Below, one piece after another: positions 1,200 through 26,677 of a DNA stretch of 46,578 nt (position 1 is the stretch's first letter; the number at the start of each line of letters is the position of its first letter). This stretch comes from Candidatus Coatesbacteria bacterium (GTDB taxonomy: Bacteria > RBG-13-66-14), in the NCBI GenBank assembly GCA_014728225.1, contig WJLX01000104.1, positions 1-46,578 on the forward strand. The letters run 5' to 3'. The translations under genes were made by a program, and so were the position numbers. The notes under the pieces were generated by a model, which was not told the origin of the DNA, made no database searches, and worked only from the letters and a program-made list of their open reading frames with translations.

Positions 1200-1661
1200 C
1201 TACCTGTAGATCTCGAGATGCACCACGGGGTCCAGGCCGTCGGCCTCGTCGAGGTACTTGGCCGAGAGTTCGGCGTTCCAGCCGCCGCCGGACCAGCAGT
1301 CGAACCGGGGACCGCCGGTGGCGGACTTGGGCCCCATGAGTTCGGTCAGCTTCTCGGAGAGCTCGATCAGCACCGCGCTCCAGGAGTCGCCGGGGCAGCG
1401 GCGGTTGTATTCGACGGACAGCAGCTCGCCCTTGTCGTCGAAGCAGTAGGCGACGTCCTCGATATCGTCCTTCTCGCCCCACAGGCACCACTCGTCCCCG
1501 GTAAGCTTCCAGCCGTCGTTCTCGAGGTACTCGCGGTACTCGGCGCGGGAGTCGGTCAGGTTCATCCCGGGCAGGACGGGGTCTTCGAGCTCGAGGGCGG
1601 GAGCGCCCGCGGCCGTAGCCAGGGAGACGATCAGGAGGAGCAGAACGGCGGTACGGCGCAT
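1200..1661 (-). CDS. small secreted protein, paralogue A of a local family
   Basis: A 153-aa protein with a clear signal peptide (MRRTAVLLLLIVSLATAAGA) and a short mature domain that I cannot assign to a named family. The longer open frame upstream lies over yhhN, so I chose the ATG in front of the signal peptide. It is one of four related proteins (1200, 3593, 4082, 4577). All share a signal peptide, a GW/GF-centred first helix (here ENDGWKL), a middle strand of the type AYCFDDKG, a helix ending in a LTELMGP-type motif, and a final VVHLEIYR-like strand. Three Cys in the mature part (in EWCLW, YCFD and RRCPG) and one in DCWS could form disulphides. It follows yhhN by 11 nt, so the two are co-transcribed. 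Confidence 0.8.
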   Translation of the reverse strand: MRRTAVLLLLIVSLATAAGAPALELEDPVLPGMNLTDSRAEYREYLENDGWKLTGDEWCLWGEKDDIEDVAYCFDDKGELLSVEYNRRCPGDSWSAVLIELSEKLTELMGPKSATGGPRFDCWSGGGWNAELSAKYLDEADGLDPVVHLEIYR

Positions 1662-1672
1662 CGGGGCTCCTT

Positions 1673-2362
1673 TTAGCAGGCGAAGACGACGAAGCCGAAG
1701 CTGAGTTGGGCCAGGTAGTAGAGGATCAGCACCAGGACCTCGGGCAGGCGGCCCTCGTGGCGGGGCAGCTTGTCGCGCTCGAAGACGCCGACGGCCAGCA
1801 GGGCGTCGGAGAGCCAGAAGGCGGCGGCGCCGACGGTCACCGGCAGCAGGACGCCGAGAGACTCGCAGGAACCGAACCACAGCCCGAGCATGGCGGCGAC
1901 CATGGCGCTCAGAGCCAGGACGTAAACGGCGACGGGGATCCGGTAGCCGGTCATCCCGCGCCAGAGCAGGAGGTAGAGCAGGACTCCCGGGGCCAGGGCC
2001 GCGCCGAACAGCCACCAGGGGAAGGCGCCGAACTCGAGCAGCACGGCCAGCAGGTAGGCGACATGGCAGAGCAGGAAGGCGGCCAGACCGGCCATGAACA
2101 ACCCCTTGCGGCGGGGGTCGTCCTCGTCGGCGTAGTAGTAGCGGGCCAGCAGGTGGTCGCCGACGGCGGCCAGCAGCAGGCCGACGGTCAGCCAGAGGGT
2201 GAAGTCGGGCAGGGGGCTGTCGGCGAGGGACAGCCCCACCAGGAGCGCGATCAGCAGGGTGGCGCCGGTCTTGACCCAGGTGTGGGCGCGGCTTTCGAGC
2301 CCCGCCGTGGCCACGGCGGCGACGGCGGCCGCGCCGGCGGCGAGGAAGAGAACCGTCTGCAT
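1673..2362 (-). CDS. YhhN/TMEM86-family membrane protein (putative lysoplasmalogenase)
   Basis: A 229-aa polytopic inner-membrane protein with about eight hydrophobic segments. The family is recognised from GDHLLARYY followed by KGLFMAGLAAFLLCHVAYL, then FWLSDALLAV and the C-terminal LILYYLAQLSFGFV, which are the conserved acidic and His positions of YhhN/TMEM86 proteins. Characterised TMEM86 members hydrolyse the vinyl ether bond of lysoplasmalogens; the bacterial substrate is not established. The length fits the family. It is the first gene of a two-gene unit with the secreted protein A, driven by the promoter at 2393-2421, which is divergent from the GNAT gene. Confidence 0.85.
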   Translation of the reverse strand: MQTVLFLAAGAAAVAAVATAGLESRAHTWVKTGATLLIALLVGLSLADSPLPDFTLWLTVGLLLAAVGDHLLARYYYADEDDPRRKGLFMAGLAAFLLCHVAYLLAVLLEFGAFPWWLFGAALAPGVLLYLLLWRGMTGYRIPVAVYVLALSAMVAAMLGLWFGSCESLGVLLPVTVGAAAFWLSDALLAVGVFERDKLPRHEGRLPEVLVLILYYLAQLSFGFVVFAC

Positions 2363-5192: not shown

Positions 5193-7079
5193 TCAGCCGA
5201 GCAATTCGCGCAGGGCGCCGGCGATGCCGGCGGCGTCCAGGCCCAGCTCGGCGCGCAGTTCGGCCTGGGTGCCCTGGGTGACGAAGCGGTCGGGGATGCC
5301 CAGACGCCGGAACTCGATCCGGGCGGGGAGTTCGGGGCGCCGCTCGTTGAAGTGCTCCAGCACGGCCGCACCGAAGCCCCCGGCGAGGACGTTCTCCTCG
5401 ACGGTCAGCAGCCGTCCGGTCCGCTCGGTCCACTCGGCGATCAACTCGCCGTCGAGGGGTTTGAGCCAACGGGCGTTAATCACCGCTACAGAAAGACCGT
5501 CCCGCTCCAGCTCCTCGGCGGCCTCGAGGGCCGGTGCGACCGTCGAGCCGAGGGCGGCGACGACGGCGTCGTTGCCTTCGCGCAGCAGTTCGCCCCGGCC
5601 GAGGGGCAGCTCGCGCAGCGGACCGGAGCGGTCGACGCCGCGACCCTTGCCCCGGGGGTAGCGCAGGGCGAAGGGACCGTCGTGACGGCAACCCGTGTAG
5701 AGCAGGTGGCGCAGCTCGTCCTCATCGGCCGGGGCGCAGACCGTCATGTTGGGCATCGAGCGCAGGTAGGAGAGGTCGAAGACGCCGTGGTGCGTCGGGC
5801 CGTCGGCGCCGACCAGGCCGCCGCGGTCCAAAGCGAAGACCACCGGCAGGTTCATCAGGCAGACGTCGATCAGCACCTGGTCGTAGGCCCGCTGGAGGAA
5901 GGTGGAGTAGATCGCCAGCACGGGCTTCTTGCCCGCGATCGCCAACCCGCCCGCCAGGCTGACGGCGTGCTGCTCGGCGATGCCGACGTCGATGAACTGC
6001 TCCGGCAGGGCCTCGGCCAGGATGACCGTGCCGGTGCCGTCGGGCATGGCGGCGGTGATGCCGACGACGTCGCCGTCGGCGGCGGCGACTTCGGTCAGCG
6101 TGCAGCCGAAGACCTCGGTGTAGGTCGGTACCTCCCCGGACGTCGGACAGCGACCCGTCGCCACGTCGAAGCGGCCCAGCCCGTGGAACTTGGTCGCGTC
6201 GCGCTCGGCCGGCTTGTAACCCTTGCCCTTCTGGGTATGGACGTGGAGCAGCACGGGGCGCTCGACGTCGCGCACCTGTTTGAGCGTCCCCACCAGCTTG
6301 GGCAGGTCGTGGCCGTCGATGGGGCCGAAGTAGAGGAAGCCCATCTCCTCGAAGATCATCCCCGGGGTGACCATGTTCTTCAGGCCCTCTTCCAGCTTGC
6401 GCGCCAGAGTGAAGATTCCCATCCCCACCCCAGGGATTTTCTTGACGACCTCCCGAACCTGCTTGCGCAGCGACAGATAACTGCGCGTGGTCATCATCCG
6501 GTTGAGGTAGTTGCTCAGCGCGCCGACGCTCTTGGAGATCGACATCTTGTTGTCGTTGAGCACCACCAGGAAGGGGAACTTCTGCTGCCCGGCGTGGTTG
6601 AGCGCCTCGAAGGACATCCCGCCGGTCAGCGAGCCGTCACCGACCACGGCGCAGACCCGGTACTCGTCCTCGCGCTCCCGGGCCAAAGCCATTCCCAGGG
6701 CCGCCGAGATGGCCGTCGAGGCGTGGCCCACGGCGTAGGTGTCGTAGGGCGACTCCGCGGGCTTGGGGAAACCGGAGATGCCACCGTACTGGCGGATGGT
6801 CCGCAGCTTGTCGCGCCTACCGGTCAGTACCTTGTGGGCGTAAGCCTGGTGACCGACGTCCCAGACCAGCTTGTCCCGCGGCGTCGTCAGGGCGTAGTGC
6901 AGGGCGATGGTCAGTTCCAGGGCGCCCAGGCTGGGGGCCAGGTGGCCCCCGGTCTGCGAGACCGTTTCGATGATGAAGCGCCGCAACTCGCCGGCCAGCT
7001 CCGCGAGCTCGAACATGTTCAACCGGCGCAGGTCCGCCGGGAAATCGATCTGTTTCAGCAAGCGGTAATCTTCGTCCAT
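5193..7079 (-). CDS. dxs: 1-deoxy-D-xylulose-5-phosphate synthase
   Basis: A 628-aa thiamine-diphosphate enzyme that condenses pyruvate with glyceraldehyde-3-phosphate, the first step of the MEP isoprenoid pathway, in the cytosol. His46 lies in SQTGGHLAPS and His119 in VGHAS. The ThDP/Mg motif GDGSLTGGMSFEALN starts at 147 and has its partner LNDN at 174-177. The catalytic Glu369 is in GIAEQH, and the C-terminal transketolase-C domain starts after about residue 490. The length matches the family. The start MDEDYRLLKQIDFP is the usual N-terminus. It lies downstream of murJ, with palindrome copy 1 in the 254-nt gap, so it could be transcribed either from murJ or from an unseen promoter. Confidence 0.97.
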   Translation of the reverse strand: MDEDYRLLKQIDFPADLRRLNMFELAELAGELRRFIIETVSQTGGHLAPSLGALELTIALHYALTTPRDKLVWDVGHQAYAHKVLTGRRDKLRTIRQYGGISGFPKPAESPYDTYAVGHASTAISAALGMALAREREDEYRVCAVVGDGSLTGGMSFEALNHAGQQKFPFLVVLNDNKMSISKSVGALSNYLNRMMTTRSYLSLRKQVREVVKKIPGVGMGIFTLARKLEEGLKNMVTPGMIFEEMGFLYFGPIDGHDLPKLVGTLKQVRDVERPVLLHVHTQKGKGYKPAERDATKFHGLGRFDVATGRCPTSGEVPTYTEVFGCTLTEVAAADGDVVGITAAMPDGTGTVILAEALPEQFIDVGIAEQHAVSLAGGLAIAGKKPVLAIYSTFLQRAYDQVLIDVCLMNLPVVFALDRGGLVGADGPTHHGVFDLSYLRSMPNMTVCAPADEDELRHLLYTGCRHDGPFALRYPRGKGRGVDRSGPLRELPLGRGELLREGNDAVVAALGSTVAPALEAAEELERDGLSVAVINARWLKPLDGELIAEWTERTGRLLTVEENVLAGGFGAAVLEHFNERRPELPARIEFRRLGIPDRFVTQGTQAELRAELGLDAAGIAGALRELLG

Positions 7080-14546: not shown

Positions 14547-15184
14547 GGGATAGCTTAACGCTCATGGGTCGTCATCTGTTGTGATTGTCTTGTCTTCACG
14601 AGAGTTGAGGGGATGCCGTCACGTCACGAGCAATGGAGGCGCTGTGGCCGCCGGCTCAAAGGGTAATCCCGACAGGCGCGTCAAGTGCGCGAAGTGTAAC
14701 TATCGCTATCACTACAGGTTAGGCGACGGGCGGCGGAAGTGCGAGCGCCTTGGAACAGCGCCGGTTGATCGCCGTGCTGCTTCGGCTTGAAGCAACCGCG
14801 GCCCGAGCGGCCAAAAAGGTCGGCGTCCATCCCAACACATTCGGCAAGTACTAGCGCATCGCCGCCGCTCGGGAGGCCGAGCTGGGCTCGAGCGTCTACT
14901 CCGACGGCTGACAGACCGATAACAAGCTGTCACTCAACGGCTTCCATCCCAGGCGCATCAATCATGACAAGACTCGGGTCAATGATAAAGTGCATAGCAA
15001 CGGCCTCGAGAGCTTCCGGGGCTATGCCAAACGCCGGCGAAAGGCCCACCACGCACGACGGTTTCAAGCGCAACGTCAGCCTCTCTATCAGGCAGATGGA
15101 GTTCAGATTCAACCAAAGAAACGATCCCGGCAGGCTAGACTACCTAAAATGCAGCCTGATTGGTCCATGATCGTGTGTGATCCC
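14547..15184 (+). mobile_element. decayed, internally deleted IS1595-type element, copy 1
   Basis: The element is bounded by imperfect inverted repeats: the left end starts GGGATAGCTTAACGCTCATGG, and the right end read inwards starts GGGATCACACACGATCATGG. It is flanked by 8-bp direct repeats TATCGTTG (14539-14546) and TATCGCTG (15185-15192) with one mismatch, the target duplication length of the IS1595 family. It encloses a broken transposase gene. The second copy at 21055 shares the ends and the same central deletion, so this is a non-autonomous derivative rather than an intact IS. Confidence 0.8.
14644..15170 (+). pseudogene. IS1595-family (ISXO2-like) transposase remnant, copy 1
   Basis: The reading begins at a GTG after GGAGGCGCT and gives a zinc-ribbon start VKCAKCNYRYHYRLGDGRRKC. 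It then loses about 50 nt compared with copy 2, shifts frame, and carries a stop within the VYSDG region. The C-terminus is still readable in pieces (FHPRRINHDKT, SNGLESFRGYAKRR, QMEFRFNQRND), which are the last blocks of ISXO2-like transposases. The central block, with the catalytic Asp of the ELDEAYFGG type, is missing. It cannot make an active enzyme. Confidence 0.8.
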
Positions 15185-15217
15185 TATCGCTGTTCCGAAC
15201 TGCTGACGATATACAAA

Positions 15218-15332
15218 ACGGGCGACTGGGGACAGTCGCCCGTACGGTTATCTTGGCGCTGTAATACGCGCCCCTGGGGGGGTGGGTTTTCATCCCGCCC
15301 GGTTTTTATCCCGCCCGGTTTTTATCCCGCCC
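15218..15332. repeat. hairpin plus three tandem 16-bp repeats
   Basis: An 11-bp hairpin ACGGGCGACTG/CAGTCGCCCGT (15218-15228 with 15233-15243) is followed by three head-to-tail 16-bp units GGTTTTTATCCCGCCC (15285-15300 with one change, 15301-15316, 15317-15332). A CGCCCGGGCG palindrome follows. No gene is present between the IS remnant and the DUF151 gene. Confidence 0.7.
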
Positions 15333-15492
15333 GGAGAACGCCCGGGCGGGGTCGAAGCAGCCGGCGTCACCCTGGGCGGGCCGGGGGGATGAGGCTCCCG
15401 CGGGCCGCCGTAGCGGAGTCAGCGGCCCCACCCCCAGGGCTTGGCGGTCGGTGGTGTTTGCGTTAACCGGCCCCCCGGGTTCTCAGGCGCCT

Positions 15493-21054: not shown

Positions 21055-21741
21055 GGGATACCTTAACGCTTATGGATCATCATATATTGTGATTGTCTTG
21101 TAGTCACGAGAGTTACCAGGATGCTTTCAAGCCACAAGTAAAGGAGGCGCTGTGGCCGCCGGATCAAAGAGTAATCCTGACAGGCACGTCAAGTGTGCGA
21201 AGTGTAACTTTCGCTATCAGTAGAGGTTTGGCGACGGGCGGCGGATGTGTAAGCGCTGTCGCAAGCGCTTCACCTATAAACGGGCTCGCCGTGGGCTTTC
21301 AGAAAAAGAGCGTGAATTGATTGCCGCGCTGTTGTGGCTTGAAGCAACCGCGGCCCGAGCGGCCAAGAGGGTCGGCGTCCATCCCAATACGGTCGCCAAG
21401 AATTATCGTATCATTGGCGAGCGTATCGCCGCGGATCGAGAGGCCGAGCTGGACTCGAGCGTCTACTCCGACGGCTGGAAGGCCTATTACAAGCTGTCTC
21501 ATTCAACAGCTTCCATCACAGGCGCATCAACCACGATAAGACCCTGGTTGGCGGCAAGCAACGGCCTCGAGCACTTCCGGGGCTACGCCAAACGCCGGCT
21601 AATATCCGACCATGGCTGCTTCAAGCACAAGTTCAGGCTCTTCATCAGGGAGATGGAGTTCCGATTCAACCAACGAAACGATCCCGGCAGGCTAGACTAC
21701 CCCAACAGCAGCCTGATTGGTCCATGATCGTGTGTGATCCT
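21055..21741 (+). mobile_element. decayed, internally deleted IS1595-type element, copy 2
   Basis: The left end GGGATACCTTAACGCTTATGG (21055 on) and the right end (TCCATGATCGTGTGTGATCC, to about 21741) match copy 1. At about 687 bp it is slightly longer than copy 1, because copy 1 lost a further 50 nt near the zinc ribbon. The flanks TTAAGCAA and GCGGTTTT do not match, so no target duplication remains and the surroundings were probably rearranged after insertion. It encloses a transposase pseudogene. Confidence 0.8.
21152..21727 (+). pseudogene. IS1595-family (ISXO2-like) transposase remnant, copy 2
   Basis: It starts at a GTG after AAAGGAGGCGCT. The zinc ribbon VKCAKCNFRYQ is followed by an in-frame TAG (a Tyr codon in copy 1), then MCKRCRKRFTYK. 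Next come KERELIAALLWLEATAARAAKRVGVHPNTV and a jump from AELDSS straight to VYSDGWKAYYKL, so the catalytic core of about 100 residues is missing. The C-terminal blocks NGLEHFRGYAKRRL, GCFKHKFRLFIREMEFRFNQRND and LIGP are clear. The same internal deletion is present in copy 1. Confidence 0.85.
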
Positions 21742-22246: not shown

Positions 22247-22579
22247 TCAATGCAACCGGCCCTGCCAGGCGTGACCGCCCTCCCAGCCGGCGTTGTACTT
22301 CGAATCGACGAAGTAGATCAGCAGCTCGGCGTTGTACTTCGAATCGACGTAGTAAACCTGGACGTCGGCGTCGTACTTCGACTCGACGAAGTACCACAAG
22401 CCGTCGTCGTCATCGGCGTCGTACTTGGAGTCGACGACGTAGACCAGCAGGTCGGCGTTGTACTTCGAATCGACGACGTAGACCAACACGTCGGCGTCGT
22501 ACTTGGAATCGCAAACGTGGATGCTGCCGGCTGGCACGGGTGGCACGACCAGTAAGAGGATCAGCGGCACCAGTTTCAT
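22247..22579 (-). CDS. secreted six-repeat SKYDAD protein, DUF6150/Septknot-like
   Basis: A 110-aa protein with a signal peptide (MKLVPLILLLVVPPVPAG) and six copies of a 13-residue motif of the form VDSKY(D/N)ADxxVYV. The third and fourth copies are separated by a DDDDGLW insert. The motif and the GLW-type insert match what I know of DUF6150 (named Septknot in Pfam), in which a small member from Ureaplasma folds into a seven-crossing (7_1) knot. I infer the same fold here but cannot model it. The ATG follows GGGAGAG and a TGcTATTCT promoter at 22609-22617. Biochemical function is unknown. It is divergent from butyrate kinase. Confidence 0.8.
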   Translation of the reverse strand: MKLVPLILLLVVPPVPAGSIHVCDSKYDADVLVYVVDSKYNADLLVYVVDSKYDADDDDGLWYFVESKYDADVQVYYVDSKYNAELLIYFVDSKYNAGWEGGHAWQGRLH

Positions 22580-22608
22580 CTTTACTCTCCCGTCAAGCTT
22601 GCAGTAAT

Positions 22609-22725: not shown

Positions 22726-23835
22726 ATGCCCGAACACCACATCCTGGTCATCAATCCCGGCTCGACCTCGACCAAGGTCGCCGTCTACGGCGATGAGGAG
22801 CTGCTCCACGAGCAGACCTTGCGCCATTCCAAGCTGGAGCTCGAGGAGTTCGAGCGGGTCTGGGACCAGTACGGTTTCCGCAAGCAGATCATCCTCGAGT
22901 TCCTCGAGGAGCTCGGCTTCGACCCGGCGACGCTCTCGGCCGTCGTCGGACGCGGCGGACTTTTCCAGCCCGTCATCAGCGGCACCTACGCCGTCAACCA
23001 GCAGATGATCAACGACGGCCGCCGGGGGGTGCTGGGCGAGCACGCCAGCAACCTGGGCTGCGCCCTGGCCTACGGCATCGCCTGGGACCTGGGTATCCCC
23101 AGCTACATCTGCGATCCACCCTCCGTCGACGAGTTCCCGCCCCTGTCCCGGCTCTCCGGCCACACCATCATCCCCCGGGTCAGCCTGTTCCACTGCCTCA
23201 ACGTCAAGGCCACGGCGCGCCGGACGGCCGCCGACCTCGGCAAGCCCCTCGAGGAGCTCAACCTGATCATCGGTCACCTCGGCGGCGGCATCTCGATCGT
23301 GGCCCTCGAGGGCGGCCGGGCCATCGAGGCCCACAACGCACTCCACGACGGTCCCTACACCCCGGAGCGCGCCGGAACCCTGCCCACCTTCCCGTTGATG
23401 GACTGGGTCTATCGCGAGGCGCGCAACGGCACCCCGCTGGGCAAGCTGAAGAAGACGCTCACCGGCGGCGGGGGCCTGGTGGCCTACATGGGCACCAACT
23501 CCGCCAAGGACGTCGAGGACATGGTCCTGGCCGGCGACAAGAAGGCCGAGCTGTACTTCAAGGGCATGGCCTACCAGATCAGCTACTACATCGGCGCCGT
23601 CGCCGTGGCACTCAAGGGCGAGGTCGACGCTATCGCCCTGACCGGCGGCCTGGCTTACGGCGACATCATGATGGAGTGGATCCGCGACTGGACCGGTTGG
23701 ATCGCGCCGCTGAAGATCTACCCCGGACAGGATGAGATGGGGGCCCTGGCCGCGGCTGCCCTGCGCGCCCTGCGCGGCGAAGAAGAGGTTCTCGAGTATC
23801 CGACCTACGTCAAGGACGACGGCGACGGGGGCTAG
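22726..23835 (+). CDS. buk: butyrate kinase
   Basis: A 369-aa acetate/propionate-kinase superfamily enzyme that interconverts butyryl phosphate and butyrate, making ATP at the end of butyrate fermentation (or activating butyrate or branched-chain acids). Evidence: LVINPGSTSTKVAVY (phosphate-binding start), VGRGGLFQPVISGTYAVN, FHCLNVKATARRTA, IGHLGGGISIVAL, and LTGGLAYGDIMMEWI near the end. I chose the ATG at 22726 because it starts just before the phosphate motif. The open frame extends far upstream only by chance through the pseudogene and the SKYDAD gene. No phosphate butyryltransferase is nearby. Confidence 0.95.
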   Translation: MPEHHILVINPGSTSTKVAVYGDEELLHEQTLRHSKLELEEFERVWDQYGFRKQIILEFLEELGFDPATLSAVVGRGGLFQPVISGTYAVNQQMINDGRRGVLGEHASNLGCALAYGIAWDLGIPSYICDPPSVDEFPPLSRLSGHTIIPRVSLFHCLNVKATARRTAADLGKPLEELNLIIGHLGGGISIVALEGGRAIEAHNALHDGPYTPERAGTLPTFPLMDWVYREARNGTPLGKLKKTLTGGGGLVAYMGTNSAKDVEDMVLAGDKKAELYFKGMAYQISYYIGAVAVALKGEVDAIALTGGLAYGDIMMEWIRDWTGWIAPLKIYPGQDEMGALAAAALRALRGEEEVLEYPTYVKDDGDGG

Positions 23836-24459: not shown

Positions 24460-26622
24460 TTAGCGACCGACGACCACCCGGCGGCTGAGGGCGCGGTTTT
24501 CGCTCTCCAGGCGCAGCAGATAGAGCCCGGCGGACTCGCCGGAGCAATCCCAGGTCAACTGGTGGCGTCCGGGGCCGAGTTCGCCCCGGGTCAGCTGGGC
24601 CACCCGGCGGCCGGACAGGTCGTAAACGGCCAGGCTGACGTGACGGGCCTCGGGCAGGGTGAAGGCCAGGCTGACGCTCTCGACGGCGGGGCAGGGCCAG
24701 GGCTCTTCGAGGCTGAAGATCAGCTCCGGTTCGGGAACGAGAAGCTCTTCGGTGGGGCCGAAGCGCCGGGTGTTGCCGTTGGGCATGGTCAGCTCGAGCC
24801 AGTAGCTGTAGCTGTGTCCGGCGTCGGCGCGGCGGTCGAGGTAGCGGGTGACGCGGCCGTCGAAGGACGGACCGACGTAGGCGGGTTCTCCGGAGCCATC
24901 GTTGCGCAGCAGGCGCACGGCGGCGGGACTGCCGCCCTCGACGGTCCAGCTCAACAGGACGCCGTCGTCGGCAAGAGTGGAGGTCAGTTCGGCCTCGAGG
25001 GTGCTCAGATCGGGCGGCACGGTGAAGCTCCAGGTCTCGGCGGACCAGAAGCTGCTGCTGCTTTGCCAGGCCTGGACCTTCCAGTAGTAGGTCAGCCCGC
25101 GCCGCAGTTCGAGGGGCCCGAACTGGTATTCGGAGTTGATCAGGCCGGTGATGGTCTGGTGGGGGGCGAAGTCGGGCTCGGTCGAGAACCACAGATCGTA
25201 GGTCGGACTAACGGCCAGCGGCAGGTCCTCCCAGTCGACCCGGGGCCAGTCGGGGACCTGTTGGCCGTCGGGTGGGGAGAGGAGGTGGAAGGTCGGCGAG
25301 ACCTGGAAGCTCCAGGTTTCGTTGGAGATGGTCTCGGCGAAGCCGTCGGTGGCCCGGACCTTCCAGTAGTAGAGGGGGCCGATGACCAGTTCGTCGCCGG
25401 AGAAGGTGTAGTTGGTCGTGTCGAGGTCGGTGATCTCGTTGTAAGTGCTGAAGTCGGGGTCCGTCGAGTAGAGCAGGGCGTAGCCGACCGCGGGGAAGTC
25501 GACGACCTCCTCCCAGCTGACCTCGGGCCAGGTTTCGAAGATCGAGCCGTCCTCGGGGCCGAGGAGGCTGAAGGGCGGCGGCGGGTTGTTGGTCCAGAGG
25601 AAGTTGAGGTCCAGTCCGCCGGCGTCGAAGTAGCTGACGACGGGGTTGTCGTTCTCGTCGAGAGCCAGGGATGTGTGTTTACCGACGACGTCCTCCTCGT
25701 CGAGGATCTCGCTGGTCCAGGCGGCGCCGTCCCACCAGGTGTAGACCAGATCGTCGTTCTCGTTGTCGTAATGGGCGACGTGGGGGTAATCGTTCTCGTC
25801 GAGGACCAGGGAGCTGTAGAGGCCCATCTGCAGCTCCGTGGTGACCTGTTCGGTCTGCCAGGCGGCGCCGTCGTAATAGGCGTAGCAGAGCGCGTTTTCA
25901 TCGCCGTCGTTGTAGACGAAGTGAGGGTTGTCGTTGAAGTCGACGGCGATGTCGTAGTTGGTCAGCATCGTTCCGTAGGCCGGGGTGGCGGTTTGCCAGG
26001 CGGCGCCGTCCCAGTGATAGTAGTCGGCGCCCATGCCGTAGCTCTGGAAGACGAGGTGGGGCAGGTCGTTGGAGTCGAGGGCGATGTGGCCGTCGAGGCC
26101 GATGTAGCCGCCGTCGACGACGGTTTCGATCGTCCAGTCGACGCCGTCCCAGTGGGCGTACTTGACCGCTCCCAGACCGATGTCGTAGTAGATGAGGTGG
26201 GGGTAGTCGTTGGAGTCCAGGGCCAGGTCGGAGTGGCTGCCGGCGGAGTTGTCGGCCTCGAGGGTCTCGATGACCCACTCGGCGCCGTTCCAATGGGCGT
26301 AGCGCATATCCACCGGGTCCTCGGCGAAGTAGGAGATGTGCGGGCGACCCTGGGAGTCGAGGGCCAGCGAGGTGTACTTGCCGGGAAAGCCCTCGTCGTC
26401 GACGATCTCGATGACCCACTGGGCGCCGTCCCAGTACGCATAGCGCAATTCGCAATCCGGGTTGGTCTTCTGATAGGCGATGTGTGGATATCCCAGGTCG
26501 TCGAGGGTCAGGGAGGTCCACAAGCCGACGACATCCTCGGTGTCGACGGCGATGATCTGTCTCTCCTGGGCGCCGGCCGTCGCCAGGCAGACAAGAAGGA
26601 TGAGAATGGACAGTTTCTTCAT
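24460..26622 (-). CDS. secreted repeat protein with FlgD-Ig / type-IX-like C-terminus
   Basis: A 720-aa exported protein with a signal peptide (MKKLSILILLVCLATAGA). Residues about 25-370 hold seven repeats of roughly 45 residues of the form TSLALDSNGYPHISYYD-LRYAHWDG-AAWVIETVD, suggesting a beta-propeller or related repeat fold. Two fibronectin/Ig-like domains follow, each ending in YYWKVRA or YYWKVQA. Next is a domain of about 110 residues with a SYWLELTMPNG segment. The C-terminus (VSLAVYDLSGRRVAQL, GRHQLTWDCSGESAGLYLLRLES, RRVVVGR) is of the FlgD-Ig/type IX sorting kind, used for surface export in FCB-group bacteria. The ATG follows GGAGG; an 18-codon upstream extension of the frame is ignored. 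A terminator follows. Confidence 0.88.
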   Translation of the reverse strand: MKKLSILILLVCLATAGAQERQIIAVDTEDVVGLWTSLTLDDLGYPHIAYQKTNPDCELRYAYWDGAQWVIEIVDDEGFPGKYTSLALDSQGRPHISYFAEDPVDMRYAHWNGAEWVIETLEADNSAGSHSDLALDSNDYPHLIYYDIGLGAVKYAHWDGVDWTIETVVDGGYIGLDGHIALDSNDLPHLVFQSYGMGADYYHWDGAAWQTATPAYGTMLTNYDIAVDFNDNPHFVYNDGDENALCYAYYDGAAWQTEQVTTELQMGLYSSLVLDENDYPHVAHYDNENDDLVYTWWDGAAWTSEILDEEDVVGKHTSLALDENDNPVVSYFDAGGLDLNFLWTNNPPPPFSLLGPEDGSIFETWPEVSWEEVVDFPAVGYALLYSTDPDFSTYNEITDLDTTNYTFSGDELVIGPLYYWKVRATDGFAETISNETWSFQVSPTFHLLSPPDGQQVPDWPRVDWEDLPLAVSPTYDLWFSTEPDFAPHQTITGLINSEYQFGPLELRRGLTYYWKVQAWQSSSSFWSAETWSFTVPPDLSTLEAELTSTLADDGVLLSWTVEGGSPAAVRLLRNDGSGEPAYVGPSFDGRVTRYLDRRADAGHSYSYWLELTMPNGNTRRFGPTEELLVPEPELIFSLEEPWPCPAVESVSLAFTLPEARHVSLAVYDLSGRRVAQLTRGELGPGRHQLTWDCSGESAGLYLLRLESENRALSRRVVVGR

Positions 26623-26668
26623 TTTGACCTCCAGGAAAAGCGCGAAAACTGTAAAATTCGAAAGAGGC

Positions 26669-26677
26669 TTATCCACA
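26669..26677 (+). promoter_or_regulatory. perfect DnaA-box match
   Basis: TTATCCACA is the consensus DnaA box. It lies in the AT-rich upstream region of the secreted-repeat gene and close to its likely promoter (TATACT on the minus strand about 20 nt further upstream). It is isolated, so it is more likely chance or local regulation than an origin. The rest of the gap, 26678-26940, shows nothing I can name. Confidence 0.35.

Follow-up and report, generated by a model that had tools for sequence, protein, structure and literature searches.

The DUF6150 gene and described knotted proteins

A 7_1 knot was predicted for the Ureaplasma protein Q9PR55 (89 aa) and a 5_1 knot for its homologue P73136 (112 aa) (PMC9278004); the former has been confirmed by crystal structure 8IWA (PMC13352647, PMC11223836). 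The Knotted Solenoid 3_1 fold (PMC13123833) likewise concerns a class of small bacterial beta-repeat proteins of unknown function, but as described it represents a family other than DUF6150, with pentapeptide repeats as its nearest unknotted kin. The window, i.e., the whole stretch of DNA analysed here (46,578 nt of Candidatus Coatesbacteria contig WJLX01000104.1), encodes a DUF6150 protein that resembles Q9PR55 (PDB 8IWA) and P73136 in being small, bacterial and uncharacterised, but no sequence link between it and these two proteins was detected.

The original prediction had placed the protein in DUF6150 and proposed a search against the PF19647 profile. That search (hmmscan) returned 115 bits (cut-off 27, E = 1.7e-33) with near-complete coverage (residues 17–100 on positions 8–90 of 98), and the gene scored 114.3 bits in a six-frame PF19647 search. 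With a family match of this strength, the outcome that would have spoken against the prediction, a missing PF19647 match together with unknotted models of low confidence, did not arise. In common with its DUF6150 relatives, the window protein shows a full-length profile match, six units, a central Trp insert (at the junction of units 3 and 4) and a terminal (A)GW, but it carries an SKYD tetrad in all six units where most relatives have YESQ or YEYQ. Weak matches to ExbD, a sugar-binding protein, a 30K protein and lipoprotein LA7/P22 (E 0.004–0.4) were attributed to chance. Two relatives were retrieved from a species-genome collection, a protein of a Candidatus Coatesbacteria MAG (L001, 72% identity by alignment) and one of Aureispira (56%); the former, as the closest relative, bears out the suggestion that the gene belongs to an uncultured-type lineage.

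The small repeat-protein ORF is real, and its strand (minus), absent from the original prediction, is added here. A 101-aa antisense ORF on the plus strand and transposase remnants nearby on the contig could be taken to indicate a chance open frame or a low-complexity antisense of another gene. Such an origin is extremely improbable and was ruled out by the PF19647 match, the L001 ortholog, a conserved neighbouring gene, a site resembling a ribosome-binding site and a dN/dS of ~0.29 relative to L001 (dN 0.19, dS 0.66). The gene is under purifying selection.

Features of the locus are listed in Table 1. The N-terminal leader, MKLVPLILLLVVPPVPA followed by GS, reads as a Sec-type signal peptide, and relatives carry leaders equivalent to residues 1–17. 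This agrees with the earlier description of the protein as secreted, and the mature chain would be exported after leader cleavage. Units begin at residues 22, 35, 48, 64, 77 and 90, a spacing of 13, 13, 16, 13 and 13, so that the DDDDGLW stretch amounts to a net gain of three residues within a regular 13-residue period. The unit pattern is hydrophobic-V-D-tetrad-A-D, and in units 1, 2, 4 and 5 a strand of four residues (e.g., LLVY) comes next. Six SKYDAD repeats had been described; six units are indeed present, but SKYDAD is strict only in units 1, 3 and 4, while units 2, 5 and 6 have SKYN. Similarly, the 13-residue period of the proposed consensus VDSKYDADxxVYV holds (bar unit 3, with three extra residues), but unit 1 starts with CD, not VD.

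Table 1. Features of the DUF6150 gene and its divergent neighbour (positions are those of the window).
Feature	Position	Strand	Basis
DUF6150 (PF19647) gene, secreted-type, 110 aa	22247..22579	-	ORF (ATG 22579, stop 22247); hmmscan; dN/dS vs L001
Signal-peptide-like N-terminus, residues 1–17	22529..22579	-	Lys2, hydrophobic core LVPLILLLVV, PVPA before G
GGGAG, ribosome-binding-site-like	22587..22591	-	7 nt upstream of ATG; read from sequence
Unit 1, residues 22–34, VCDSKYDADVLVY	22478..22516	-	Translation, unit table
Unit 2, residues 35–47, VVDSKYNADLLVY	22439..22477	-	Translation, unit table
Unit 3, residues 48–63, with +3 insert, VVDSKYDADDDDGLWY	22391..22438	-	Translation, unit table
DDDDGLW stretch, residues 56–62	22394..22414	-	Trp (W62) invariant across 23 sequences (alignment A1)
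Unit 4, residues 64–76, FVESKYDADVQVY	22352..22390	-	Translation, unit table
Unit 5, residues 77–89, YVDSKYNAELLIY	22313..22351	-	Translation, unit table
Unit 6, residues 90–99, FVDSKYNAGW	22283..22312	-	G98, W99 invariant across 23 sequences (alignment A1)
C-terminal tail, residues 100–110, EGGHAWQGRLH	22250..22282	-	GGHAWQGRLH identical in L001
Acetate/butyrate kinase family gene, divergent neighbour	22726..23835	+	PF00871 E 7.5e-18

Distribution and number of units

Six-frame searches detected DUF6150 in the window's phylum (8 of 14 genomes), in a second (36 of 42) and a third phylum (10 of 125) and in that of Aureispira (20 of the 396 genomes drawn from it), as well as in three small groups; none of the 14 control genomes gave a match. 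A phage or plasmid gene was ruled out, as phage records, plasmid records and viral contigs all lacked a match. Members are 87–92 aa long without a signal peptide and ~110 aa with one. Leaderless, presumably cytosolic proteins form a subfamily (L010, L021–L024, L028, L036, L050, L054, L056, L057) that coexists with the secreted form in some genomes, indicating that export is not intrinsic to the role of the fold. The genome of the window carries three copies: besides the window gene, contig 102 holds two in tandem (L090, nt 6164–6541 and 6589–6924, minus strand), and this pair is surrounded by genes for predicted exported proteins that have no Pfam match. A tandem triple occurs in genome G012 (L092, nt 5253–6320, plus strand), and the copies within the pair and the triple differ in tetrads or in degree of divergence.

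The number of units was compared among 85 distinct DUF6150 genes from about six phyla, of which 65 align in all six units. The phylum of genome G292 contributes eight intact genes and one fragment, also with six units, the first being one residue short; the remaining genes are diverged members or fragments, some of these cut off at contig ends. There are two clear exceptions. A gene of a sister genus (L008, nt 1414–1698; G003, contig 92) has four units and, compared with L005, lacks exactly two (78 nt), through what may be a real deletion or an assembly collapse; a contig of the sister genome (L009) ends inside the same gene, suggesting that the repeats trouble short-read assembly. The other exception (L084, nt 1420–2136, minus strand; G591) has five units of the KYAYEAD type, lacks the Trp insert and carries a long extension at its C-terminus. 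By eye, a Ser-rich linker comes after the units, then a hydrophobic stretch, and the C-terminus looks SH3-like. This survey mostly contradicts the proposal of an easily changing repeat number: six is the rule, and the count is therefore strongly constrained. Three contigs (L009, L018 and L026) stop within a DUF6150 gene, and short-read assemblies therefore probably give too low a count and a distorted picture of the family.

Tetrads within and between genes

A pattern newly recognised here is that, within any one protein, all six units carry almost the same tetrad, whereas the residues at other positions depend on the unit. Tetrads differ from gene to gene: SKYD in the window gene, L001 and Aureispira, AEYQ in L005, YESY in L016 and L017, YESQ in many others, and YEYQ throughout a whole phylum. 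Among 12 Coatesbacteria genes, tetrad identity is 0.894 within a gene, against 0.457 when the same unit is compared across genes (shuffle maximum 0.600), and across 64 genes the corresponding values are 0.742 and 0.433 (shuffle maximum 0.462). Unit position 1 behaves in the opposite manner, with an identity of 0.15 within genes and 0.39 between them; its residues run V, V, V, F, Y and F through units 1–6. The array can thus be separated into a unit-specific scaffold component and a protein-wide tetrad component. In a paralog from the window's genome (L015, nt 1465–1797 on its minus strand) the tetrads are distributed half by half, with YESQ/YESS in units 1–3 and YEAQ in units 4–6.

SKYD was found in this sample only in two Coatesbacteria genera and in Aureispira. 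Six SKYD tetrads occur on two scaffolds in two phyla. A FastTree reconstruction with the tetrads masked, the alignment retaining only 68 columns, gave placements that are suggestive: the window gene and L001, both with SKYD, are joined by L005 (AEYQ), and the Aureispira SKYD gene groups with the YESQ genes of its own phylum. Nearest-neighbour comparison agrees with this tree. The Aureispira scaffold is 0.64 identical to that of L071 and 0.50 to that of the window protein, the corresponding tetrad identities being 0.00 and 0.88. The simplest reading of these sequences involves more than one change of tetrad across an entire array, with SKYD arrived at twice.

The DNA of the repeats had been called near-identical, which overstates the case, as the complete 39-nt units are 72–90% identical (mean 80%); similarity above expectation is nevertheless evident. 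The 24-nt cores of the window units are 71–96% identical (mean 85%), against 74 ± 3% expected for the same protein with the codon usage of the window, and only 0.05% of simulations reach 85%. This is in line with the Coatesbacteria genes as a whole, in which codon match is higher within a gene (0.811) than between genes (0.722–0.738), and some homogenisation of the DNA has probably occurred there. Gene conversion rather than selection may therefore lie behind part of the within-gene identity of Coatesbacteria. These conclusions rely on the between-gene codon comparison and the codon-usage simulation, which replace a within-gene codon permutation; the latter carries little weight, since amino acids found at one unit position only cannot change the match.

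It could be argued from the same codon figures that the repeats are alike solely through DNA homogenisation, by short-tract gene conversion or unequal exchange, with no shared structural role and with neutral motif switches. The apparent exact two-unit loss in L008 and the divided tetrads of the paralog L015 would fit such a process. We consider this explanation unlikely, as the tetrad alone is homogenised and unit position 1 has kept the unit-specific residues that whole-unit exchange would erase, and the unit number remains six. Moreover, in a set of 24 genes from one phylum the codons are scrambled, being no more alike within genes (0.585) than between them (0.575, GC3-matched), yet the tetrads are still identical, which indicates that there they are held by selection on the protein. 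The two processes may be combined: short-tract exchange would spread a new tetrad, and selection for equal tetrads, probably owing to their part in a ladder or a repeated surface, would then keep the array uniform.

Putative fold and gene neighbourhood

The explanation we favour, at roughly even odds, is that of an exported DUF6150 protein with a fixed six-unit, probably knotted beta structure and a scaffold or binding role, in which the tetrads supply a periodic element. After cleavage of the leader, six beta-arch units, three to each side of the invariant Trp insert, would most likely form a compact, very stable and probably knotted structure outside the cytoplasm. Its most likely role would be that of a rigid scaffold or binding module, to judge from the leader and from an architecture that is symmetric and constant. 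Unit-specific residues, such as those of unit position 1, would define the fold and explain the fixed number of units, and the tetrad (SKYD here), alike in all six units, would provide either a ladder of side chains or a six-fold, ligand-facing surface. A more specific version, in which the number of units sets the complexity of the knot (six giving a 7_1-type knot, the four-unit L008 and five-unit L084 simpler knots or none) and the six tetrads must stay alike as one continuous ladder, so that the array switches motif together, seems improbable.

That the DUF6150 chain is knotted is a plausible hypothesis. The AlphaFold models, built from a three-sequence alignment, reached pLDDT values of only 39.5 and 37.1 and are unusable on this point; the weak AF2 model places strands at most 'ADxxVYVV' stretches, and a Foldseek search with the model of pLDDT 39.5, which is too poor for a meaningful fold search, returned nothing at E <= 0.001. 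An alternative that is possible, although rather doubtful, is that the published 7_1-knot proteins belong to another family and DUF6150 forms an unknotted beta-solenoid or beta-roll. The number of coils in an open solenoid usually varies, and the fixed unit number and unit-specific residues of DUF6150 are unlike such a structure. PF19647 is also named for a 7(1) knot in UniProt and InterPro, and the original prediction likewise tied the family to a 7_1 knot. In length the members are similar to Q9PR55 and P73136, an agreement that is compatible with a link and no more. For the unknotted form speaks that DUF6150 is named nowhere in the literature searched, and that none of six queries (P0001, L071, L084, A1, A4 and A5, three of them profiles) found a significant PDB chain although 8IWA is reported as solved (PMC13352647), with the reservation that the searched copy may lack this entry.

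If DUF6150 is the 7_1-knot family, the ~85 genes compared here offer a test of whether repeat number dictates knot type and of how a deeply knotted chain evolves; if the chain is unknotted, the pattern would even so be that of an unusual symmetric beta protein without a solved structure. Any folding or functional model has to account for the fixed count of six, for the likeness of the tetrads within one protein and for the occurrence of SKYD arrays on two scaffolds in two phyla.

The divergent arrangement of the kinase and DUF6150 genes is kept in L001, which comes from another genus, and the kinase genes are 69% identical (tblastn). In a sister genus, the nearest relative of the window gene lies elsewhere, adjoining a Memo/AMMECR1 gene, so that the kinase is a local neighbour carrying little functional information. 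Neighbours are not conserved beyond the two closest genera, and gene context thus gives no functional clue. Two IS1595-like transposase remnants are present in the window, one at nt 21,245–21,727 (plus strand; DDE_Tnp_IS1595, E 1.1e-5, just below cut-off) and one at nt 14,990–15,466 (plus strand), the latter judged by eye from similar translated text. The window also encodes a 738-aa exported repeat protein (nt 24,460–26,676, minus strand) whose C-terminus gives a Por_Secre_tail-like match (E 8.4e-6, slightly below cut-off), hinting at type 9-like secretion.
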